Positions 1,136-13,500 of a stretch of 22,199 nt of DNA are shown here, piece after piece. The notes beneath the pieces are model-generated. The model saw only the letters and a list, made by a program, of their open reading frames with translations. It was not told the origin of the DNA and did no database searches. The translations under genes were made by a program, and so were the position numbers. Source of the DNA: a virus; IMG/VR virus record IMGVR_UViG_3300004369_000170, positions 1 to 22,199 of that record. One strand, 5' to 3'. Every line of letters begins with the position of its first letter. The first letter of the stretch is position 1.

Positions 1136-1165
1136 GTTGACAAGATCAACTTATCATGTAATCAT
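1136..1165 (+). promoter_or_regulatory. Promoter with GTTGA-N5-TCAAC operator, leading into the structured RNA
   Basis: A consensus -35 box TTGACA lies at 1137-1142. The -10 box is weak; candidates near 1159-1165 (TAATCA or AATCAT) give spacers of 16-17. The -35 lies inside the perfect palindrome GTTGA-CAAGA-TCAAC (1136-1150). A second 15-base palindrome, ATGTAATCATTACAT (1156-1170), covers the -10 and ends just before the expected transcription start near 1171. The first palindrome has the same arms and spacing as one at 7326-7340, suggesting control by the same regulator. Confidence 0.55.
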
Positions 1166-1171
1166 TACATC

Positions 1172-1660
1172 ATAAGGTATTCTAGTAAGGGATTACTACA
1201 GGAAGGAATTTAAATGTGTTCCTGTTGAGTGGGTTTACAAGCACTCTATAAACACCGCCTTATAAATTTTGTAGTTGGGAGTGAGCCTTTATAAAACCCC
1301 ACATACTTGTGTAAAAATAAGTAGGAAGTTAGGGTTAAGGATAATGCAGTCACTTAGAACTAAACCGCTACTGCACTAACTACAAAAAGTGTGCGAGGGT
1401 TGATAGGGAACTTAGCAGTTAATGAACTATCCACTTGGTGCTAACGAGATTCACGAGGTTAGTTAAATGAGACTTGTTAAACACTCAAGCCAAGTGCTAA
1501 TCCAACTGCCCACACACTGTCTGAGGAACTATCGGCAGTTTCACAATGGTTAATGCATTGATCGTGAAACCAAAGAAGAGAAGGACACCTGTATAGCTAG
1601 TGATTGGTGGGTATCAACAATCCGTCACTGAATAGCCAACGGACACTAGCTATACACCTT
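1172..1660 (+). ncRNA. Candidate large structured RNA of no class I recognise
   Basis: No protein gene fits here, yet the sequence pairs with itself almost end to end. Domain 1 is closed by 1172-1178 with 1257-1263 and holds hairpins 1198-1204/1219-1225 and 1227-1231/1242-1246. Domain 2 is closed by a perfect 10-bp helix, 1267-1276/1378-1387. Inside it are 1286-1289/1337-1340, 1295-1299/1332-1336, 1304-1308/1319-1323 and hairpin 1345-1350/1370-1375. Domain 3 follows with no gap: 1388-1393/1513-1518, 1415-1420/1504-1509, 1432-1438/1490-1496, then two arms, 1440-1445/1458-1463 and 1468-1471/1484-1487. Hairpin 4 is 1538-1544/1564-1570 with inner 1545-1548/1556-1559. Domain 5 is a perfect 13-bp helix, 1590-1602/1644-1656, enclosing 1603-1606/1618-1621 and 1621-1625/1639-1643 (these share one base). 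The 5' helix begins at the expected start of the upstream promoter. I see no tRNA end, tmRNA signature, RNase P core or intron core. It could be a free RNA or a long leader of the gene at 1673. Helices were found by eye only. Confidence 0.6.
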
Positions 1661-1672
1661 TAAGTTTAGAAC

Positions 1673-1834
1673 ATGAATTACACAGAGGAAGAAAAACAAG
1701 TCTTAGAAGCCATTAAAACTGTTAGAGCCTATATCAAAAACAATTTAGTTTTTGTTGGTGAAGCCAAGTTAAATGACCTTTTGTTTAATCTCCAAGAAGA
1801 AACCATAGGGAAAGCCGAATTTAGAGATGGGTGA
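1673..1834 (+). CDS. Small hypothetical protein (53 aa)
   Basis: An ATG at 1673 opens 53 codons ending in TGA at 1832-1834. The product starts MNYTEEEKQVLEAIKTVRAY, is mostly helical and charged, and is not recognised. There is no clear Shine-Dalgarno: the ATG sits 17 bases after the last helix of the structured RNA region. Either the leader controls its translation or the gene is weakly expressed. Its last bases overlap the next small gene (ATG at 1827), as expected for a coupled phage operon. Confidence 0.5.
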   Translation: MNYTEEEKQVLEAIKTVRAYIKNNLVFVGEAKLNDLLFNLQEETIGKAEFRDG

Positions 1835-1906: not shown

Positions 1907-2098
1907 ATGACTTATCCACACATAAGAGAAAAGGTAAACAAAAGGCGAGAAGAACTTTCAGAAGAACAGAAAGACAATATGTTGGCGTTTGATTATTACC
2001 AAAGTAATGTCGTAAATGGAGAGCAAAAGATACTTGAGTGGAAAAAGTATTTATCTGGCAGAGAAACCAAAAAAACTATTGCCAAAAAAATTAAATGA
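1907..2098 (+). CDS. Small basic hypothetical protein (63 aa)
   Basis: A 63-residue, Lys/Glu-rich, probably helical protein, not recognised. The start is well supported by GGGAG 6 bases before the ATG. The C-terminus is strongly basic (ETKKTIAKKIK), which may indicate nucleic-acid binding. Its stop overlaps the start of the next gene in an ATGA junction (2095-2098), showing translational coupling in the plus-strand early cluster. Confidence 0.65.
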   Translation: MTYPHIREKVNKRREELSEEQKDNMLAFDYYQSNVVNGEQKILEWKKYLSGRETKKTIAKKIK

Positions 2099-3327: not shown

Positions 3328-3735
3328 ATGAATAAATTATTTTTATCCCCAAAGGCTTTAGGTTTTGAAAGTTTGTTTGACAGACTTGAAGCGTTTCAAA
3401 AAGAACAATCAAGTTACCCACCATTTGATGTAACAAAAAAAGATGATAAATACTTCATCACTTTTGCAGTCGCAGGTCTTACTAAAGAAGATATTAAGAT
3501 AGAACTAGAAAATGGCTTTCTGAGCGTCTCTCACAGCGCTGGTGAAGATGTAATTGGCGAGGAAGTGCTACATAAAGGCATAGCAAAAAGATCGTTTATA
3601 CAGCGTTTTACGCTGTCTGAGGATATCGTCATAAATGACGCTAAATTATCCAATGGATTATTGGTAATAGAATTGCAGAGAATAATCCCTGAGGATAAGA
3701 AACCTAAATTAATAGAGATTACTCAGGAAGACTAA
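3328..3735 (+). CDS. Small heat-shock protein, Hsp20/IbpA family
   Basis: A 135-residue protein with the alpha-crystallin domain of small heat-shock proteins, ATP-independent chaperones that hold unfolding proteins. Residues about 32-118 show the family pattern: DVTKKDDKYFITFAVAGLTK with the A-G-L-T-K-E-D-I turn, ELENGFLSV, and the signature LSNGLLVIELQR at 107-118. The N-terminal FESLFDRLEAF resembles the IbpA start, and the C-terminal I-E-I (129-131) matches the I-x-I/V tail that docks on neighbouring subunits. AAGGA upstream supports the start. Marine phages and cyanophages are known to carry Hsp20, probably to help virion assembly. The gene overlaps the convergent nuclease gene by 17 bases. 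Confidence 0.9.
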   Translation: MNKLFLSPKALGFESLFDRLEAFQKEQSSYPPFDVTKKDDKYFITFAVAGLTKEDIKIELENGFLSVSHSAGEDVIGEEVLHKGIAKRSFIQRFTLSEDIVINDAKLSNGLLVIELQRIIPEDKKPKLIEITQED

Positions 3736-4171: not shown

Positions 4172-4965
4172 TAAATAGCCTCGTAAAGATTTATTTCCAT
4201 TACATTAGGTGAGTTGTAGCAACTTATTTGTTTGTTTTGTAAGTATTCTTTGTAAATATCAAAGGCTTGGGTATTTAATTCAGAGCCAAGAAAAATAGAT
4301 TTATCACCAAGACGATACACTTTGTTTGCATAAGGAAAAGTTTTTTCCTGTGCGATAAAGTAAAAGTCTGTGACCTCATAGCCTAAACCAACTATTCCGT
4401 CTATATACCAAGAGGCTTGTTGATGATAGCCAAAATTTCTTACGCTTTTCTCAAAACCTTTTGGAGAAGCATCTGCTGTGGTCTTGTAATCTACAAGAAT
4501 AGCTTTTGGTTTATTGCTAAAGTCTTTTTTGTCTTCCAAGAACATAGCATCAGGTCTACACTTGCATAGAACATTATCTCTTTCCCAATATACAGACTGC
4601 TCTACTAATGCACCTTTTAGCAAATCCATAGCTTCTGGAACTAATGCATTTTTCATAGCCTGCATCTGTTGAAACTGACTTTCGGTAATTACTACCAAAT
4701 TTTCATCTTGGGCTTCTTGCCACCGCATCTTGCCCTCTTTAGTTCGCTTGTCAAAGTTAAAGACAACAAATTCAGATTGAAAATCATCTTCTTCTAATAT
4801 CCATTTGTGACAAGCACTACCAAATTCTAATGCTGGTGATGGTGTTATTTCCTCTCTGTTGAGAGCGTGTAAAAGAGATTTATGTATCTCTCTCAGAAAA
4901 GAAGAAGAGATACCCTCTCCCCCATGATATTCTGAGTTTGTGTTTTGTATTAATCCTATTTCCAT
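4171..4965 (-). CDS. RecE/RecB-like exonuclease (PD-(D/E)XK)
   Basis: A 264-residue protein resembling the C-terminal nuclease domain of exodeoxyribonuclease VIII and related phage exonucleases. These resect one strand of double-stranded DNA to give ends for strand annealing. Visible core residues: H53 (GSACHKWIL), D139 (CKCRPDAMF), D159-Y-K161 (ILVDYKTT) and the YHQQASWY motif around 180-187, all in the family order. The start has AGGAG a few bases upstream. It would be the resecting partner of the Sak4-like ATPase and ssDNA-binding candidate upstream in the same operon. Confidence 0.85.
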   Translation of the reverse strand: MEIGLIQNTNSEYHGGEGISSSFLREIHKSLLHALNREEITPSPALEFGSACHKWILEEDDFQSEFVVFNFDKRTKEGKMRWQEAQDENLVVITESQFQQMQAMKNALVPEAMDLLKGALVEQSVYWERDNVLCKCRPDAMFLEDKKDFSNKPKAILVDYKTTADASPKGFEKSVRNFGYHQQASWYIDGIVGLGYEVTDFYFIAQEKTFPYANKVYRLGDKSIFLGSELNTQAFDIYKEYLQNKQISCYNSPNVMEINLYEAI

Positions 4966-4974
4966 GTCTTTCTC

Positions 4975-5256
4975 CTAAAATGGTATTTCAAATCTTACAT
5001 CTTTTGTTTCGTAAGGTAGAACCCAACCTTTTTCTTCAACGAAATCTAAGATGTTTTCTTTCTCAGTTCTTTCAAAGTTGTAATAAGGGAAGTCATTCTT
5101 AGCCAACCAACCTTGTGCATCTTTGATTAAGTCTTCGTGTTCTTTTAACAAGAACAAAGAAGTCTCAGGGTCTTCAATGTTTAAAGGTATCAGGTGATTG
5201 TCTGACTTTCCTATAAAAAAATAAATCTTGATCGTTTGCGGGGAATATTCCTGCAT
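4975..5256 (-). CDS. Hypothetical protein (93 aa)
   Basis: Not recognised. A 93-residue acidic protein whose C-terminus is VRFEIPF, recalling the acidic-IPF tail of bacterial SSB proteins. It starts inside the upstream gene, overlapping it by 83 bases in another frame. GAGGAG ten bases before the ATG is the only support for a separate start. A T7 run in the overlap makes a frameshift-joined single gene a real alternative (see findings). It lies in the recombination operon. Confidence 0.5.
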   Translation of the reverse strand: MQEYSPQTIKIYFFIGKSDNHLIPLNIEDPETSLFLLKEHEDLIKDAQGWLAKNDFPYYNFERTEKENILDFVEEKGWVLPYETKDVRFEIPF

Positions 5257-5437
5257 CTATAAAAATCTCCTCTACTTCTGCTTCTATATATTGACCATTG
5301 TAGCCTTGTGCATAACAAATACTGTCTGCTTGTTTCCAATTGCGAGCATTAATTATGTCAATGACTTCCATTTCATCATTTTTATTTTTCTTAACTACAA
5401 GGTATTTCTTATCAAAAGCTGTCATACGTCTAATCAT
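5174..5437 (-). CDS. Hypothetical protein (87 aa)
   Basis: An 87-residue protein, not recognised. The start could be ATG 5437 or ATG 5425 (MIRRMTAFDKKYL); neither has a good Shine-Dalgarno, so coupling to the Ref-like gene 11 bases upstream is likely. Residues 10-60 look like a small alpha/beta domain. The last 28 residues lie within the overlap with the next gene and end in a charged tail (VRQSPDTFKH) that may be out of the original frame. Confidence 0.5.
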   Translation of the reverse strand: MIRRMTAFDKKYLVVKKNKNDEMEVIDIINARNWKQADSICYAQGYNGQYIEAEVEEIFIDAGIFPANDQDLFFYRKVRQSPDTFKH

Positions 5438-5448
5438 AGTTTAGTTAG

Positions 5449-5772
5449 CTAGAATGGTAAATCGTCTTCCGTGTATTTATCCAACAGCTTGTTGACTTGT
5501 TTTAATAAGTCTTCTTCCTTGCCATAAGTTTTTTCAAAACGATATTTAAAAGGATGCCGACTGATAGGCTCAGTAGAACTGATGCCTCTATGGTGTGCAT
5601 AACATAAGGGTAATACATCAAAGTGAGCATTATGTTTGGTCTTTCCTCGGATATGGTGAATTTCAGAAGGAACAAACCCCTTGTTTAAATTTCTGCAGAC
5701 TATGCAACCCAATGCACGAACTTGCTTCATGTGAAGCATTTCGTTATCAGTCGGCTTTCTCCCTCTAATCAA
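5449..5772 (-). CDS. HNH nuclease resembling the P1 RecA-dependent nuclease Ref
   Basis: A 107-residue metal-binding nuclease. C23-x2-C26 and C57-x2-H60-H61 flank H39-H40. The order RGRKPT, ALGCIVC, IHHIRGKT, LPLCYAHHRG matches what I recall of phage P1 Ref, which cuts DNA at RecA-made D-loops. It lacks the long basic N-terminal tail of P1 Ref, so it corresponds to the catalytic domain only. It ends in EDDLPF, close to the SSB C-terminal tip. Its start overlaps the preceding gene in an ATGA junction. Confidence 0.75.
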   Translation of the reverse strand: MIRGRKPTDNEMLHMKQVRALGCIVCRNLNKGFVPSEIHHIRGKTKHNAHFDVLPLCYAHHRGISSTEPISRHPFKYRFEKTYGKEEDLLKQVNKLLDKYTEDDLPF

Positions 5773-5975
5773 TTTATAAGGCTTCTTTCTAAGTTTAATA
5801 TTTCTTTTTCAAAATCGTTTAACATGCCAACCAAAGGTCGCATCTGATCTTCGATATAAGGAACTCTAGATACAACCAAAGATAAATCTTTGTGCCATAA
5901 CTCTAGTTCTTGCTTTAGGTGAAACACTTGCCTTTGCATAGCGTCTAACTCTTCTTGTAAATTTTTGATACTCAT
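5769..5975 (-). CDS. Small coiled-coil protein (68 aa)
   Basis: A 68-residue protein not recognised by family. Residues about 1-30 (NLQEELDAMQRQVFHLKQEL) and 45-66 show heptad spacing of Leu, Met and Val, so two antiparallel helices or a parallel coiled coil are likely. The ribosome binding site GGAGAAGAC precedes the ATG. It sits between the ssDNA-binding candidate and the Ref-like nuclease and may be an adaptor, by position only. Confidence 0.6.
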   Translation of the reverse strand: MSIKNLQEELDAMQRQVFHLKQELELWHKDLSLVVSRVPYIEDQMRPLVGMLNDFEKEILNLERSLIN

Positions 5976-5993
5976 GTCTTCTCCAATAAAAGT

Positions 5994-6017
5994 GGAGAGG
6001 TAGCGAACTACCTCTCC
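5994..6017 (-). terminator. Intergenic hairpin with UUCG loop (weak terminator or processing site)
   Basis: On the minus strand GGAGAGGTAG and CTACCTCTCC form a perfect 10-bp stem closed by TTCG, followed by ACTTTTATT. The T tract is short and broken, so it would attenuate rather than stop transcription. The next gene starts 19 bases later. It could also protect the 3' end of the abundant upstream mRNA. Confidence 0.5.
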
Positions 6018-6030
6018 GAGTCAATTCTAG

Positions 6031-6540
6031 TTAGGAAGCCCAACTAGGTTTGACAGCACTGGTTGATGCGGCAGCCTTTTGCTCAGTTGCCTGTGCTGTT
6101 GGCTGTGAGGGAGCATCATTGCCAGCGGAAACTGCTTTCTTATACCCTCTAATGATATTAGATGGTGCATATCCGTTCTTGCTTTCCTCAGTTTCTACTT
6201 TTATATCAAGTAGATTGTCGTGCAACTCAGTCGGATCTTGGAAACCTGCCAACCCCATAGACTTGCAAATATTTGCTAAATCTTTGTGACCAATTTCAAC
6301 CGCCCTTTCGTTGTCATTATCAACATTAATTCTTGTCCAAACCTTTCTACCTTTGTATCTAGGTCCGACAATTTCAAAAGTAAACTCAATGTATTGACCT
6401 TTAGAAGTCAATCCCTCTTGTTTCTTTTTAGTGTCCTTTACCTCAGAGTTGACAATCATAGATGTGTACCAACCATCAGGTAAAAGTTGTAGTGGCTCAT
6501 TGTTAGTGAGCGGTTCGTTATGTGTAAATGAAAACGACAT
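6031..6540 (-). CDS. DUF669-like phage protein, ssDNA-binding candidate
   Basis: A 169-residue protein with the pattern of phage DUF669 proteins, which are encoded next to Sak4-type ATPases and are thought to bind single-stranded DNA. The OB-like body spans about 15-130 (LLPDGWYTSMIVNSEVKDTK, YIEFTFEIVGPRYKGRKVW, HKDLANICKSMGL, LLDIKVETEESKNGYAPSN). A low-complexity Ala/Gln/Ser/Thr tail (135-165) follows, as in SSB proteins, but the end is KPSWAS rather than an acidic IPF tip. It starts one base after the ATPase gene ends, with GGAGAA upstream. Confidence 0.75.
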   Translation of the reverse strand: MSFSFTHNEPLTNNEPLQLLPDGWYTSMIVNSEVKDTKKKQEGLTSKGQYIEFTFEIVGPRYKGRKVWTRINVDNDNERAVEIGHKDLANICKSMGLAGFQDPTELHDNLLDIKVETEESKNGYAPSNIIRGYKKAVSAGNDAPSQPTAQATEQKAAASTSAVKPSWAS

Positions 6541-6541
6541 A

Positions 6542-7249
6542 TTATTCTCCTTTAGTTTCTTTCGTTTCTTTTGGTTTCTTTGTAGCCCTGATTTTGTTTA
6601 TGACAGCATCAAGATCGGCTGGCTCGTATAAGTCAAGTTTGCCACTTCTATCTTTTGCCACAAACTGTCCATCAGAACTGGTTTGTAGATATCTTTTGAT
6701 TTGGTCTTCTACAAGTTCATTTCTCAGAACAAAAACCTCATCAAAGATATATGGAAGATTCTCAGGTAATTTCTTACCAACCATAGATGGTCTGTAGAGC
6801 ATTCTTCCGCTTACCTCGTCTTTATCTCTTTCAATTTTGGCAGTCATTACCACATTGATTTTTGATAAATCCCTAAAAGCCCTCAACATATCCATCATAC
6901 TTTTCTGGACTGTTTGATAGCTTTGTCGGTTATCACGAGTTTTTTCTAATTCGCTTGATAACAGAACTTCCGATATCTCACTAATAGAATCAATACACAA
7001 ATTATTAAAACCATCTTTGTTCTCTAATAAGAGGCTATACACCTCAAAGAGTTCAGCAACAGTTTTAACCTCTACAGCATAAACATCAGTGCTGTCTGCA
7101 ATAGACAACAATCCTGCTTCGGCTGAGATTATAAGTGTTTTTCCTTTAAGGGAAGTAAGGAGTCTAGTTTTACCTGCTCCAGATTCCCCAAATATAAGTA
7201 TGTTTATGCCAGTGTTTTTGACTAATTCACTGACCGGTTTTATCTCCAT
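6542..7249 (-). CDS. Sak4-like RecA-fold ATPase (AAA_24)
   Basis: A 235-residue ATPase with Walker A GESGAGKT at 21-28, a Walker-B-like strand FNNLCIDS ending at D87, and MTAKIERD near 135-142. It matches phage Sak4/AAA_24 proteins, short RecA-like enzymes that anneal single strands with help from an SSB. The C-terminus is a Lys/Glu-rich tail (KKPKETKETKGE). AAAGGAGA before the ATG is a good ribosome binding site. It is the first gene of the minus-strand recombination operon and would be expressed from the promoter at 7312-7339. Confidence 0.85.
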   Translation of the reverse strand: MEIKPVSELVKNTGINILIFGESGAGKTRLLTSLKGKTLIISAEAGLLSIADSTDVYAVEVKTVAELFEVYSLLLENKDGFNNLCIDSISEISEVLLSSELEKTRDNRQSYQTVQKSMMDMLRAFRDLSKINVVMTAKIERDKDEVSGRMLYRPSMVGKKLPENLPYIFDEVFVLRNELVEDQIKRYLQTSSDGQFVAKDRSGKLDLYEPADLDAVINKIRATKKPKETKETKGE

Positions 7250-7305
7250 AAACGTCTCCTTTTAAGTTTCATGTGAGTTTCTGCCAATTATTTTTATAAA
7301 GGGCA

Positions 7306-7334
7306 TTGACAATCATAACTAAAAAGTTGATTAT
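7306..7334 (+). promoter_or_regulatory. Rightward promoter for the replication genes
   Basis: TTGACA (7306-7311), a 17-base spacer and GATTAT (7329-7334). The start would be near 7341, 15 bases before the HTH gene. The -10 box is covered by the operator at 7326-7340. Confidence 0.65.
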
Positions 7335-7339
7335 GTCAA
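7312..7339 (-). promoter_or_regulatory. Leftward promoter for the recombination operon
   Basis: On the minus strand TTGACA (7339-7334) is followed after 16 bases by TATGAT (7317-7312). It overlaps the rightward promoter almost completely, so the two polymerases would compete. The -35 box lies inside the operator, the same geometry as at 1136-1150. Confidence 0.65.
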
Positions 7340-7340
7340 C
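7326..7340. promoter_or_regulatory. Operator GTTGA-N5-TCAAC shared by divergent promoters
   Basis: The perfect dyad GTTGA-TTATG-TCAAC covers the -10 of the rightward promoter and the -35 of the leftward one. Arms and 5-base centre are the same as at 1136-1150. The likely ligand is the small HTH protein encoded 16 bases downstream. Confidence 0.65.
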
Positions 7341-7355
7341 TCTTTCCAAAAAGAT

Positions 7356-7556
7356 ATGAAGTTAAAAGATTTTATTAGTAAAGTAGGTAACGAAACAGCA
7401 TCAAAAACTTTTGATGTTCCTGTTGGCACTATTAAGTCTTGGAGACATGGAGTCTCTATTCCAAAACCTGAAAGGGCAAAACATATCGTTAAGGTATCAA
7501 GGGGTATGATATCTTGGGAAGATATATATGGAGATTTAGAGGATGTTCAACAATAG
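7356..7556 (+). CDS. Small Cro/YdaS-like helix-turn-helix regulator
   Basis: A 66-residue protein. The N-terminal helices (MKLKDFISKVGNETASKTFD) and the recognition helix PVGTIKSWRHG (about 22-32) form an HTH. The following KAHIV-type helix and GMISWEDIYGD tail are typical of Cro/YdaS-like phage regulators, whose pattern ends in S-x-G-x-I-x-W-E-D-I. The upstream site is weak (AAAAAG). It lies directly beside the operator at 7326-7340 and overlaps the primase gene by 14 bases, so it is a good candidate for an autoregulator that also controls the leftward operon and the 1136 site. Confidence 0.75.
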   Translation: MKLKDFISKVGNETASKTFDVPVGTIKSWRHGVSIPKPERAKHIVKVSRGMISWEDIYGDLEDVQQ

Positions 7557-9663
7557 CCTAACAGGGCAAGAAACGATTTATGATTTGGCTCTTGATTATC
7601 ACGAACAAGGGTGGCATATCATTCCTGTATCAAGAGAGACTAAGCAACCTTTAGTTAAAAGCTGGAAGTCTTATCAAACTACCGCACCTGAAATAAAAGA
7701 TATCAATCGTTGGTTTTACGGAGAGCAAGAAGTAAACATAGCTTTGGTGTGTGCAGGTTTCTGTGTAGTGGATGCAGATACTCCTGAGGCAGTTGAGTGG
7801 TGTGATGAAAATTTATGGTCGCCTGTGCAAGTTAAAACTAGAAAAGGCAAACATTATTATTTTTCTAATCCTAAAAACTTTGCACACTATGTTTCTAATA
7901 AAACTAAATTGCCACCTGAAAAACACATAGACATAGTTGCTACTTATGCACTTGCACCCTACTCAACTCATGCAACAGGAGTTCAATACTTGCCTTATGT
8001 GCAAGCAGACTTTGATTTTAGTTTTGTCTCTGACTTGCCTGCTATGGATGATGACCTTGTTGCTAAAATTCGTGGAACATCCGTAGGTAACACTAAATCA
8101 GAAGAAATAGATTTTTCTGCTTTTGCTACGCCGAGTCTTGACCCTGTGCATGAGGGTTCGAGAAATGCAACCTTGACTCAGGTGGTAGGAAGATTCATTG
8201 CTATGGGCGCAGCACCTGAGGAAGCATTGTGGATTGCTAGAAAAGCCAACGCTGACTACAAGCCACCTTTACCTGATAGGGAAATACTTACCATTATTAG
8301 ATCTATCTTTGAATTAGATGTTAAGAAACTTAATGAGGGTTTAGCACCTATCTATAGACCTGCAGAAAAAACCCTAGAACAACCGAAGCATATATTAGAA
8401 CCACCCGGAATTTTGGCTGACATTTGGGCGTATGCAGAATCTATGGCAAGAACTCCACAACCTTATCTTTCTGTCAACATAGCATTAGCTATTGGCTCTA
8501 TTGCTTGTTCAAGAGTTTATAGAACTAATATAGATAATTATTCTTCTTTATTTTTTCTAAATATAGCGAAGTCAGGTCAAGGAAAAGAAAACGCTAAAAA
8601 GGTTATAGAAAAAGTTTTAGAAGATTCAGGAATATCCGATATGGTGGCTGGTGATGGCTATACTTCAAGTGGCGCAGTATTTTCAACACTAGCTAAAAAA
8701 CCAGCGCATATAGTTATTATTGATGAATTTGGCAGAAGACTTAAAGGCATTAATGCAGGAGAAAGCTTTCATCAAGATCAAGCCATGAGAACGCTTATGG
8801 AGAGTTGGGGTAGATGTGACGGAGTGTTAAGACCTGACCAATATTCTACCTATAGCAGACCTGATGAAGACGAAAGAATCTGTTACAACCCAGCAATTAG
8901 TATGATAGGTATGACAGTTCCTAGAAATTTCTACAGTTCAATAACAGGAACTGAAATCGCCGATGGATTTCTTAATAGATTTTTGGTAGTAGAAAGTAAA
9001 AAGGAAAGAGTAGCAGGTAGGTTGATAGAACCCTCACCTGTACCACAACATATTGTGCAATGGATTAAAACCATACGTAAAGTTGGCAACGATGGCATGT
9101 GGAGAGCGATTAACGATAATGCAAGGCTCAGACCTAAAGACGTTACTGTGCTTGAGTTTGATGTTGCAGCGATTGAATATTTAGAACAATTTGAAGAGGG
9201 TCTAATTCAACGACAAAAAGAATTAGAGGAAGAGGGTCTAGAAGTTTTACTTTCTAGAACTAGAGAAAAAGCAATGCGAGTTTCTTTGATATGTGCATTA
9301 GCCGAAGATCCTTTTCAAAAAGTCATACCACTGCATTGTGTTGAATGGGCGTGTGAGTATGTTAAATATTATGACGAACTTCTTGTTGAGGCTTGTTCTA
9401 CTAAGGTTGCATCTAGCGTTGAGGAAGCCAAACTTAAAAAGGTATTGGATGCTGTTCGTAAAGCAGGTGAAGAGGGTATATCTAAAAGAGATGTTGATAG
9501 ACATACAGTCTTTAGATCTATGCCTAAAAGAACTGTTATGGAAATCATACAACGTCTTATTGGCTCAGGAGAGATACAAGAAAGAAAGTTAAGAGGAACT
9601 AGCGGTAGGATTGCGGCTAGATACATTGCTGTAGACAGTAGTTATTTTGATGATAAGGAATAA
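7543..9663 (+). CDS. Prim-Pol primase/polymerase fused to a DUF3987-like helicase
   Basis: A 706-residue replication protein. Residues about 10-165 look like the bifunctional primase/polymerase (Prim-Pol) domain: EQGWHIIPVSRETKQPLVKSW, the metal-binding D77-A-D79 in CVVDADT, KTRKGKHYYF at 98-107, and a D-I-V-x(6)-P-Y-S-T-H segment at 130-143. Residues 206-258 resemble a PriCT linker. The motor part has a Walker A-like AKSGQGKEN (342-350), Walker B HIVIIDEF (389-396), and NRF at 478-480 as a possible arginine finger. The end (about 620-690) reads as a winged helix. The P-loop has Glu after Gly-Lys where Thr or Ser is usual. It would prime and unwind phage DNA. The start lies inside the HTH gene. 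Confidence 0.85.
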   Translation: MFNNSLTGQETIYDLALDYHEQGWHIIPVSRETKQPLVKSWKSYQTTAPEIKDINRWFYGEQEVNIALVCAGFCVVDADTPEAVEWCDENLWSPVQVKTRKGKHYYFSNPKNFAHYVSNKTKLPPEKHIDIVATYALAPYSTHATGVQYLPYVQADFDFSFVSDLPAMDDDLVAKIRGTSVGNTKSEEIDFSAFATPSLDPVHEGSRNATLTQVVGRFIAMGAAPEEALWIARKANADYKPPLPDREILTIIRSIFELDVKKLNEGLAPIYRPAEKTLEQPKHILEPPGILADIWAYAESMARTPQPYLSVNIALAIGSIACSRVYRTNIDNYSSLFFLNIAKSGQGKENAKKVIEKVLEDSGISDMVAGDGYTSSGAVFSTLAKKPAHIVIIDEFGRRLKGINAGESFHQDQAMRTLMESWGRCDGVLRPDQYSTYSRPDEDERICYNPAISMIGMTVPRNFYSSITGTEIADGFLNRFLVVESKKERVAGRLIEPSPVPQHIVQWIKTIRKVGNDGMWRAINDNARLRPKDVTVLEFDVAAIEYLEQFEEGLIQRQKELEEEGLEVLLSRTREKAMRVSLICALAEDPFQKVIPLHCVEWACEYVKYYDELLVEACSTKVASSVEEAKLKKVLDAVRKAGEEGISKRDVDRHTVFRSMPKRTVMEIIQRLIGSGEIQERKLRGTSGRIAARYIAVDSSYFDDKE

Positions 9664-9665
9664 AT

Positions 9666-9746
9666 ATGATTAGAGTAGCATTAGGTTTAATTTTCGGTAT
9701 GATAGTAAGAGCTATCTTATTTGATGATAGTAAACGGAGAAGATAA
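9666..9746 (+). CDS. Single-pass membrane micropeptide (26 aa)
   Basis: ATG 9666 lies two bases after the primase stop and opens 26 codons: MIRVALGLIFGMIVRAILFD and a basic end DSKRRR. Residues about 3-19 form one hydrophobic helix broken by an Arg at 15; positive ends suggest membrane insertion. Its TAA overlaps the next ATG (TAATG), and GGAGAAGA inside its end serves as the next ribosome binding site. Function unknown. Confidence 0.45.
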   Translation: MIRVALGLIFGMIVRAILFDDSKRRR

Positions 9747-10051
9747 TGACTTACGAAGAAAAAGTAGATAGGTTTTTAAATACTGTTAAAAAAACGCTAC
9801 TAGAGCGCAATGATGAATATGGAGATCACGAAAATTTCTTTATTGGTATGGCTCATGGGATGAATGCCATATTATTACCAAAATTAAAAGATAAGGTTAC
9901 TAAGGCGGATGCGCTTGCAGTCATGCAACTCTTAAAGGCTATCAGAATAGCACAAGCACCAACTCACATAGATTCTTACGTAGATAGCGCAGGCTATGCA
10001 ACATTAGCAGGAATGGAAGCACAGAGAGTTGGAGATTATTTTGATAAATGA
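9746..10051 (+). CDS. DUF6378-like phage protein
   Basis: A 101-residue all-helical protein resembling the phage DUF6378 group: RNDEYGDHENFF near 21-32, the long central helix with ADALAVMQLLKAIRIA, then DSYVDSAGYATLAGMEA. The pattern (acidic residues on helices, D-x-x-x-D before the last helix) recalls MazG-like all-alpha nucleotide pyrophosphohydrolases, so nucleotide-pool cleaning is possible, but that is inference. GGAGAAGATA precedes the start. It is in the same transcript as the primase. Confidence 0.7.
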   Translation: MTYEEKVDRFLNTVKKTLLERNDEYGDHENFFIGMAHGMNAILLPKLKDKVTKADALAVMQLLKAIRIAQAPTHIDSYVDSAGYATLAGMEAQRVGDYFDK

Positions 10052-10589
10052 TAGCGATTTAATAAAACAAGACATCATAGAGTGGATGAAAGGCAGTGTT
10101 TTTAAGTCAAACGAAACCTGCTCTGGTATGACGCTCTGTCCTTTTGCTGAAAAGATTTACCAGCAAAAACGCTTAAAGATTGTTACTTCTATTGAGTCAG
10201 GTAAAACTTATCAAGACTACGCTCTAACTTTTGATAAAAGCAAATACGATATTATTATCTTTGCTGACATTCATTATCCACAAACTCCTCAAGAACTTCA
10301 CGATGATATTGATTTATTCAACAACGTAAATTTTAAAAACGATATCTATCTTATGGCTTTTCATCCTGATGAAACAGATGAAGCAGCAGAATTATTTGGA
10401 GACTTTTTTGGGTCTGATATAGAAGTTCCTGATTACAGTATGGTCTTTATACAAAAACTTTTGAAGCTAGATGACGCAGCAAAGAATCTCGAAGACACTG
10501 CGTATTACGATAACTGGAAGCTGAAAGAATATAAAAAATTGGTAATAGAAAGAAGAAGGCTTGCAGAACGTTTACGTTCTTTAAATTAG
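10041..10589 (+). CDS. DUF1415-like protein of unknown function
   Basis: Start chosen at TTG 10041, because TTGGAG lies six bases before it; TTG 10029 and ATG 10083 are alternatives in frame. The protein of about 182 residues contains LCPFAEKIYQQKRLKIVTS and, in its middle, LMAFHPDETD. The pair C-P-F-A near the start and F-H-P-D later is what I recall of the bacterial DUF1415 family, although the rest is divergent. The C-terminus is a basic helix (KLVIERRRLAERLRSLN). It overlaps the end of the upstream gene, and its own end overlaps the convergent virion gene by nine bases with no visible terminator. Confidence 0.55.
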   Translation: MINDSDLIKQDIIEWMKGSVFKSNETCSGMTLCPFAEKIYQQKRLKIVTSIESGKTYQDYALTFDKSKYDIIIFADIHYPQTPQELHDDIDLFNNVNFKNDIYLMAFHPDETDEAAELFGDFFGSDIEVPDYSMVFIQKLLKLDDAAKNLEDTAYYDNWKLKEYKKLVIERRRLAERLRSLN

Positions 10590-13500
10590 TTTCCTCATTT
10601 CTTCTTCTCGTAATACCTGACCAGCCATACCACCCATAGGTTGTCCTTGTGGTTGGAAGATGTCTATATTTTGAAAAGGTGATGGCTCTATAGTTGGCAT
10701 AGATACAGGTTGTCTTGGAGCCATAGTGGTTTGAACTTTTGGAGTTGGTTGTTGTTCTTCAGCTTTAGCCTCTTCTCCATAGAATGTTTCTAACAAATCT
10801 TCATCAGATTGAAGCATCTCTTGTGTAAAGCCTAAACCTGATCCCAAAAACCAAGCATTAATTCTTTTTGCTAGTTTTACTTTCTCTCCAATAGTTTTTC
10901 CTTTTTTGAGTAAGTCTGCCACTAAGGCGGGATCTTTCATAGCTTCAAACAAAAAGTCTCTCATCATACTTTGAGGAACTTTGTCTAAAGCGTTTCTTAC
11001 AAATCTTGACCCAGCAGAAGCAGCTATCAAAGAAGCATTTCCTTCGCTAAACGATGCTCCTAATCTAGCACCAATAATTCTTGCCATTAAATCTTGCAAA
11101 GCATTCATTGGTGTATCAATTCCCTCAATAACGCCTTTTTCTAAAATGGATTTCTCCATTACAGCCATCTCATTTACCATTTTTTCTAAGTTTCTGACTT
11201 CATCTACAGTAAATACACCTTTGGTTTTCAGCTTGCTCATTAACGATCTTGGGTCACCCTTTGCGCCAAATTTATCAAACAAAGTTTTATAGAATTTTTG
11301 AAAGGAGATATTGTCTGCTGGTCCTGATTTTAAAGTAGCCCATTCAAATATTGCTGACTTTAATCCATCAACCGCTTCTGGACCTGATTTTTTTGCTTGA
11401 TTAATTATGTTATCTAAATCTCTAAATGGAGTTTTAGATGTCAATATGCTATTTAAAGCTTTAACAGGATTTTCATTTACTTCTTTATTAAGTTTTCCAA
11501 AAGCTGTTTTTTCTGGAAGATTTAATACTCTTTTTTCTCTGTTCTTAAAATGGTTAAGTCTTATCTGTGCTTTGGTAGCGTCTTCAAAATCAGATTTCAT
11601 TCCTAGCTTAGTTAAAACTTCATCGTATTCATTTACAAAAGCTTTGAGTTTATTTGGATTGATGTTTCCATCTTGATCTAGAGCTTTTCTAGCCATTAAC
11701 TGAACAGCTAACTGTTCTGCTTCTCTTAAGGTTCCAAGACCAGTTTCATCTAAAGACTTTATAGTATTCTCTCCAGCGGTTTCTACCAATTGCCCTGTGG
11801 TTTCGTCTATTCTAGAGAGGAAAGTGACAGCATCCTCAATTTGATTCATTCTGGTAAAAGTTATATCTCCAGCAGATTTGTAAGTTTCTCTTATCATTAA
11901 TTCTGGAATTATTTTTTCTGCACCAGTTTTAGTTTTACCAGTAACTTTTCTTGCAAAAGTTCTAGTAAATGTGTCATTTAAGGATTTAGAAAAGCTTCTT
12001 GCAACATCATAAGCATCATCAAAGTCTGCTAATTTATCTAAATCATTTAAAACAGCATCTGCCATTTGTCCAAAGTATCTTGCTTTTGAAGGATCTGTAT
12101 CTGCTTTTGCTCTAGCTTGATCTAGCATCACTGTTCTAAATTTTATTAATTCTCCAACATTTGTTCGCAATCTTTCAATTTCTTTTGAAGCATCTTGGGG
12201 TTTAAAATCTTTAATAGGCGTTACTTTGTGTTGTTCTATAAGATCTTCTAGTTCTTCTATGCGCAATCTTTCGTTTGTTTTTCTTTTAACAAAACTTCTT
12301 ATTTGCCAAGGCAGAGGAGATTCTGGACTTGCTTCGTCTGCTAGTTTTGTAAACGAGCTGAATATGTTGTCTGGTTCAATCTGAATATTTTTGTCTACTT
12401 GTTTCCAAAAAATATCTTCTTGTTCTCTTGCTTCTTTTAAAGCCTGCTTTACCAAATCTTTTTCAATTTCTCCAAGTTCAAATCTGCTTGGTTTTTTATT
12501 AAAGAATATTTTTTGAGATTTTTCTTGAGCTTCTTTTTTTGCTAATCCAAGTCTTGCTTGTAAAATGTTTTTAAAATTTGTTGATCGTATTTGTGAGGCA
12601 GCTTGTAAAGCTTCTTGATCTCCTGTTTGAATTAAAAGTTCAACCAAGTTATTTATAGCAGCAAGATTTTCTTTATTGATTCCTTCTAAATCTGTTGCGA
12701 ATTTAACGCTTTTATTAGCAAGTTCATTTTCTATTCTTGATAAAGTAACGTTGCCTGTTTTTTGAGCCGGAGTTAATTTAATTCCTTGCAATACAGATGG
12801 CTCGTTGAGTGCTGCGATTAAAGCATCTACATCTTCACCAGAATCTTGTAGTATCTTTAATAAGGTGTTTGCTGCTTGAGCCTCTCTACCGCCCTCAGAA
12901 ACTTTAGCTCTTATATTTTTTACAAGACCCTGAATTGGTATGCTTGCTGTTGCAAATATAGTGACTGGATTTAAAAAAGCTCCGCCAATCTCTCCAGTTA
13001 TTCTTGGACCAAGCTCTCCGGGTGCGATAGATTCAGCTACCCCTGCTCCTACTCCTGATCCTATTATTTGACTTAATTCTGCAAACAAAGTTCTTACAGG
13101 ATATTGCATGGTTGTTTCTTTTATTCTTTGCAAAAACTGTGGAGCTTTGCTTCCTATGGCTAATGGTGCTGGCAAAAAGCTGGCTCCATAACCTATTGTC
13201 TTGCCGGCTTCTTCAAAAGGGTAAGCTCCCGGAACTACATCTTCTTGTGGAAAGAAGTATTCTGAAATTCTTGGTGTTTGCGTTCCTGCAGCCAAGGCTG
13301 CTGAAAGACCAGTAACTCCTGCTGATATTCCTTTTAATGGAACAGGACCCGGTACTTTAAAGCCAAGTTTAGCTCCGCCAACAAAAGCCCCTACTGATGG
13401 CAAAGCTTCAGTTAAACCTCTTGCCACTCCTGTTCTTACGCTTTCAAAAGCAGTGGGCATTTTTGCTCCGGTAAGCTCAGATATTATCTCATCATCTGAA

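Follow-up and report, generated by a model that had tools for sequence, protein, structure and literature searches.

Structured RNA modules arranged in a row, and gained, lost, reordered and nested among marine podovirus-like phages

The viral contig studied here (IMG/VR record IMGVR_UViG_3300004369_000170, positions 1 to 22,199; this whole stretch is referred to as the window) carries phage genes for a terminase small subunit, an Hsp20 small heat-shock protein (3328-3735), an exonuclease, a Sak4-like annealing protein, a primase/helicase and structural proteins, and its closest annotated relatives by protein are the Pelagibacter phages HTVC027P and HTVC023P and phage DSL-LC04. A 6.25-kb contig (L002) is 97-98% identical to 4627-10672 of the window and stops short of the region of interest. 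We report that this region, 1172-1660, holds several distinct structured RNA modules in a row (the array): D1, D2, D3 with a nested core (F) and D5, with D4 as an uncertain member. All of them lie on the + strand, as do the two genes that follow: an ORF of 53 aa with no assigned function (1673..1834) and a gene encoding 63 aa (1907..2098).

Upstream of the array, the + strand has a promoter-like site at 1137..1165 (TTGACA-17-AATCAT), whose second hexamer is preceded by TG. An earlier note on this DNA had transcription start from it; the site does lie 6 nt before D1, and since the 2 such sites found are no more than shuffled sequence would give (2.3) it is suggestive only. An imperfect 23-bp inverted repeat (78%) at 1140-1186 covers both this site and the start of D1. 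Four GTGACAC/TGACAC-type repeats at 1010-1110, immediately upstream of the array, are possible operator or initiator sites, and the AT-rich overlapping palindromes on CTAATTAG/ACTAGCTA at 801-964, between divergent genes, may mark a replication origin.

Region 1172-1660 has 8-16 stops in each of the six frames over about 162 codons, in agreement with the noncoding character claimed for it. ARAGORN predicted 0 tRNA or tmRNA genes in the whole window and in six related loci, and there is no Rfam match to introns, as expected from the lack of such hallmarks noticed earlier. The five closing helices named in the earlier note are also present: 1172-1178/1257-1263 (D1), 1267-1276/1378-1387 (D2), from 1388-1393 (D3), 1538-1544/1563-1569 (D4) and 1591-1603/1644-1656 (D5), with D2 and D3 adjoining at 1387/1388. 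For D3 the register of the closing stem, 1389-1393 with 1511-1515, is backed by covariation. Comparison with shuffled controls gave a mixed picture. The folding energy of the whole region was -131.1 compared to -119.0 in shuffles (z -1.95; 5 of 100 shuffles were equally good), i.e. weakly better at a z of about -2, and the two strands were equal in this respect (reverse strand, z -2.3 vs -2.5). Divided by domain, the z values were -1.2 for D1, -2.4 for D2, +0.1 for D3, -0.3 for D4 and -4.6 for D5; hence only D5, clearly, and D2 fold better than shuffles, and the best-proved module, D3, does not. Minimum free energy is probably a poor guide here because of the pseudoknots and the many A-U pairs. 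Folding energy alone would not have proved a structured RNA; the comparison of homologues does.

Homologues were not reached through the neighbouring genes. The terminase small subunit, the exonuclease and a 104-aa neighbour used as protein queries gave no locus covering the array, Hsp20 retrieved unrelated phages only, and one contig (L007) was rejected as a relative, being an unrelated high-GC phage. The whole window had no match among isolate phage genomes. The route that succeeded began with a pseudo-peptide, made by translating the RNA region in six frames and writing X for each stop, and went on to loop-based DNA patterns. The former detected eight viral loci, each having just one or two of the domains at 80-95% identity, and the homology blocks end at domain borders (D1 1173-1262, D2 1267-1388 and D3 1391-1513), such that the boundaries proposed for D1, D2, D3 and D5 match those of homologues in other uncultured viral contigs. 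The patterns, with loop letters fixed and stem letters free, detected D1 at 10 loci and the inner core of D3 at 35; all 35 F loci were confirmed by a covariance model (E<=1e-18), which at this threshold finds 38 loci with exactly one copy in each. Likewise, each module is present in a single copy in 19 longer contigs (G006 is counted twice only through two overlapping pieces).

D1 (92 nt; 1172..1263) has a closing stem, 1172-1177/1258-1263, a hairpin, 1198-1204/1219-1225, and an H-type pseudoknot in which 1227-1231/1242-1246 crosses 1233-1237/1249-1253, the latter strand pair being invariant. Nine distinct homologues were aligned (alignment A3). The closing stem compensates (TAAGG/CCTTA to TAGGG/CCCTA) and so does the pseudoknot stem (GAGTG/CACTC to GGATG/CATCC); 96.4% of the cells are paired and six pairs, among them the pseudoknot stem, have two-sided changes. 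The covariation is 0.158 vs 0.083 in shuffled alignments, and 0 of 500 shuffles reach the score. Shuffle counts of this kind are not probabilities, as the sequences are related, and slid controls together with two-sided pairs carry the weight.

D3 (1388..1516) is closed by 1388-1393/1511-1516 and has inner stems at 1397-1401/1499-1503 and 1402-1406/1427-1431, a pseudoknot at 1415-1420/1504-1509 and the inserted F core. In its alignment (A2; five sequences) 98.4% of the cells are paired, 13 pairs have two-sided changes and 0 of 500 shuffles reach the score; the pseudoknot covaries as well (GCAGTT/AACTGC to GCTGTT/AACAGC). The earlier note had put aside two short pairings as non-nesting alternatives. 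Two such pairings, 1227-1231/1242-1246 in D1 and 1415-1420/1504-1509 in D3, are covarying pseudoknots.

The F core (roughly 60 nt; 1432..1496) consists of a stem, 1432-1438/1490-1496, and two hairpins, 1441-1445/1458-1462 and 1468-1471/1484-1487, with near-invariant 12-nt loops. Its alignment (A1) comprises 21 sequences, in which 91.1% of the cells are paired, 10 of the 16 pairs changed on both sides, and 34 columns are invariant with the loops nearly so. The covariation is 0.432 vs 0.110 in shuffled alignments (0 of 500), the best slid control reaching 0.144. Another contig, L125, has a D3 host, with its own 8-bp closing stem, from which the F core is absent and in which CTATC-CAAAGT-TAATCC replaces the insert; this contig also bears F by itself elsewhere. 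The presence of F alone and of an F-less host in one contig indicates that one structured RNA was inserted into, or removed from, another.

The claim of structured helices thus holds by domain: those of D1, D3 and F keep pairing through compensatory changes, those of D2 and D5 are less well backed, and D4 lacks a homologue. D2 (121 nt; 1267..1387) has a 10-bp closing stem, 1267-1276/1378-1387, a variable inner hairpin and the conserved segments GAGCCTT..TAAAA..CC, GGTTAAGGATAA and GAACTAAACC. Among its six distinct sequences (alignment A4) RNAalifold retains 22 pairs, two of them two-sided, so the support is below that for D1 and D3. D5 (1591..1656) has the 13-bp closing stem and internal pairings; a homologue 88% identical is present in L112, L119 and L134, and the outer stem shows one compensatory change (T-A to C-G; two sequences). 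D4 (1517..1582), a hairpin at 1538-1544/1563-1569 with a purine-rich linker, is described from its sequence only, has no homologue among the viral contigs compared and might still be the result of chance folding.

The contigs that carry these modules form 22 groups, with under 4% of 24-mers in common between them. F is present both in contigs with an HTVC103P-like terminase (G006, about 65% identity; G015 and G024, which match G006 at 77-83%) and in others whose terminase resembles that of HTVC023P and DSL-LC04, and the two terminase groups have no mutual blastp match. Searching nine related isolates with D1 and F gave nothing better than E 0.7, and F against isolate phages at E<=10 gave chance matches only (best E 0.5). 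The nearest isolates are without D1 and F, so their phage group can do without the modules. The contigs are all metagenomic and many are fragmentary, so absence from a given phage group is not implied. In GTDB genomes the F pattern had 0 matches and the D1 pattern two, both attributed to chance by the covariance model. Rfam 15, all families, gave no match at the gathering score, including the group I/II intron catalytic core and known self-cleaving ribozyme classes; at E<=10 there were sub-threshold matches only, mostly to eukaryotic snoRNA, miRNA and lncRNA models, and these were taken as chance. Likenesses of F to a hammerhead or T-loop, and of a further module, K, to group I P3/P7 letters, were unsupported by Rfam.

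The order of the modules is D1-D2-D3-D4-D5 in the window vs D3-D2-D1-D5 in L112, L119 and L134. A homologue of the 63-aa gene follows the permuted array (58% identical; by tblastn over 53 aa in L134, L119, L185 and L190), and the loci therefore look equivalent, with the modules reordered. At least six further families (E, H, I, J, K and M; recurrent segments defined by similarity only) flank D1, D2, D3, D5 and F. Other arrays read D1-D2-E-I-M, F-H-K, F-H, H-F, D2-F and F-E-J, and D3 occurs with K and J. Several arrays finish in the terminator-like GCCACxC-TTTTT. These modules are thus gained, lost, reordered and nested, and this happens in at least two terminase lineages of marine podovirus-like phages.

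Module and following gene share a strand in 24 of 27 non-redundant places, many single modules are situated about 15-45 nt ahead of a start codon, and the proteins encoded downstream of one and the same module are, with two exceptions, mostly unrelated (blastp). Promoter-like sites occur just upstream of some arrays only, e.g. TTGACA-17-TATATT in L137, and such matches are cheap.

We lean towards the view that the array is a set of accessory noncoding RNAs that act in trans and, like the members of a phage tRNA cluster, are transcribed together. Phage tRNA gene clusters and the T4 stable RNAs C and D are small structured RNAs between phage genes; as in those, there is a row of RNAs, one copy each, with a content that varies among phages, but tRNA and tmRNA genes are missing from the array (ARAGORN) and the cores are unrelated to tRNA in Rfam. 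Each module has a closing stem and a conserved core to itself, and would mature or fold independently, be co-transcribed with the neighbouring phage genes and act in trans while the phage infects; the array would thus resemble a tRNA cluster with another cargo. Such a set is favoured over cis elements, DNA repeats or one giant RNA because of the single copies, unrelated neighbours, mixed content and reordering. It is consistent with compensatory changes that leave the loops of D1, D3 and F almost unaltered, and with modules common to dissimilar genomes and to two terminase families without detectable similarity. One copy per genome is not the pattern of repeats, operators or generic stability elements, and mostly unrelated downstream genes are not that of riboswitches. 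The permuted order at a seemingly equivalent locus, the nested F with its empty site, the terminator-like array ends and the shared strand in 24 of 27 cases fit as well, but the location of single modules shortly before start codons suits a cis role equally, and the lack of D1 and F in the nearest isolates counts against this view. Most speculatively, since near-invariant loops sit on variable stems, the loops may dock on something conserved in the hosts. The ribosome, RNA polymerase, a nuclease or a defence system are candidate partners, of which the sequence singles out none, and the array might then serve as a kit for takeover or anti-defence, with a set of modules that changes from phage to phage.

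The main rival, which we consider rather unlikely, is a cis role: each module would be a leader or intercistronic element that serves the next mRNA as an aptamer, a stabiliser or a processing signal. The strand bias and the location of many modules shortly before a ribosome-binding site speak for it, as do two sets of arrays that precede homologous genes (L106 with L132/L142; L102 with L105/L111) and the purine-riboswitch-like layout of F, a three-way junction in which the two conserved loops, ACGAG and CUUGU, might pair with each other. Phage riboswitches such as the glutamine riboswitch of phages Melnitz and Mosig (PMC9004378) resemble the modules as structured RNAs of marine phages that have conserved loops and often precede a gene; the modules differ in having no Rfam riboswitch match and no consistent functional class downstream (blastp). 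One copy per genome, and tandem arrays with four to five different modules before a single gene, also count against a cis role.

It is improbable that the whole array is one large ornate RNA, a single particle with the modules as exchangeable building blocks. GOLLD and ROOL are single conserved classes of one long, cage-forming RNA, often near tRNA islands (PMC12286853). They share with the array phage origin, a length of several hundred nt, an elaborate fold with pseudoknots and no assigned function, and the dense packing with D2 and D3 abutting, as well as a possible long-range pairing 1399-1405/1612-1618, would suit such an RNA. Against this, the modules are short and are met solitary or permuted, no tRNA island is nearby, and there is no Rfam match to GOLLD, ROOL, OLE, ARRPOF or others. 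The suggested distant kinship with GOLLD or ROOL was not recovered, and the order of domains is not fixed; a structured, multi-domain, phage-borne RNA outside Rfam stands, and one large class is not the best description, since the modules are separate and single-copy.

Still less probable are DNA-level mobile or recombination cassettes (PeSLs, attC sites, MITEs) with hairpins that serve gene shuffling rather than RNA. As described in PMC4503421, which cites Arbiol 2010 and Comeau 2014, PeSLs of T4-type phages are mobile promoter/stem-loop cassettes linked to gene shuffling, with promoter-terminator motifs dense in shuffled regions, and as mobile elements with a stem-loop they resemble the present intergenic modules, which move between phages and include a nested insertion with its empty site. 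The modules differ from PeSLs so described in being single-copy, in their large conserved cores and covarying pseudoknots, and in having promoter-like sites before some arrays only; they also differ from transposons, MITEs and attC sites in that no common ends and no target duplications were seen, ends differ between modules and loci, and unpaired loop positions are as invariant as pairs. A strand comparison gave G-U vs A-C as 13 to 8, a small margin. Chance folding or an overlooked protein gene, to which the weakly lowered energy would lend itself, has a negligible probability given covariation in three alignments (0 of 500 each) and stops in every frame, being refuted for D1, D3 and F and possible for D4.

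Taken singly, each module is of a known kind, a phage structured RNA without assigned function. What is new, the proposed function excluded, is that RNA families outside Rfam are reordered and nested across unrelated phages; our literature search, with subscription papers mostly outside its scope, found no earlier description of the modules, and one may exist. The large phage RNAs known so far are single classes, and here several non-Rfam families occur together. Their exchange between phages with unrelated packaging genes, by shuffling and nesting, is an RNA counterpart of protein domain shuffling. More tentatively, marine phages may share a combinatorial library of at least ten RNA modules, recombined as units, reordered and inserted in one another's stems, giving composite trans-acting RNAs with the host as their target. 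The spread in relatives of Pelagibacter phages suggests an RNA-based trait that is important in the ocean, and, given the covariance models and exact sequences, expression, processing and partners can be tested directly.

Further recurrent segments were observed. Module H (L114 6598-6685, L123 and L113) has the pattern GAGTCAGCCAT..GGGTGCGAGA..TTATCCC..GAAGTGAC..ACTACTAGAC without Rfam match and appears to be pseudoknotted, its strands covarying by eye (GAAGGT/ACCTTC vs GAGAGT/ACTCTC). Noncoding segments of the E, I, J, K and M types are found at L116 38-328, L139 5752-5893, L125 3384-3465 and L105 7822-8114, and J- and K-type ends have a GTGG/CCAC closing stem and then a T run. Finally, in L106 with L132/L142 and in L102 with L105/L111, homologous downstream genes are preceded by different module sets, which suggests that these loci are sites of module swapping.
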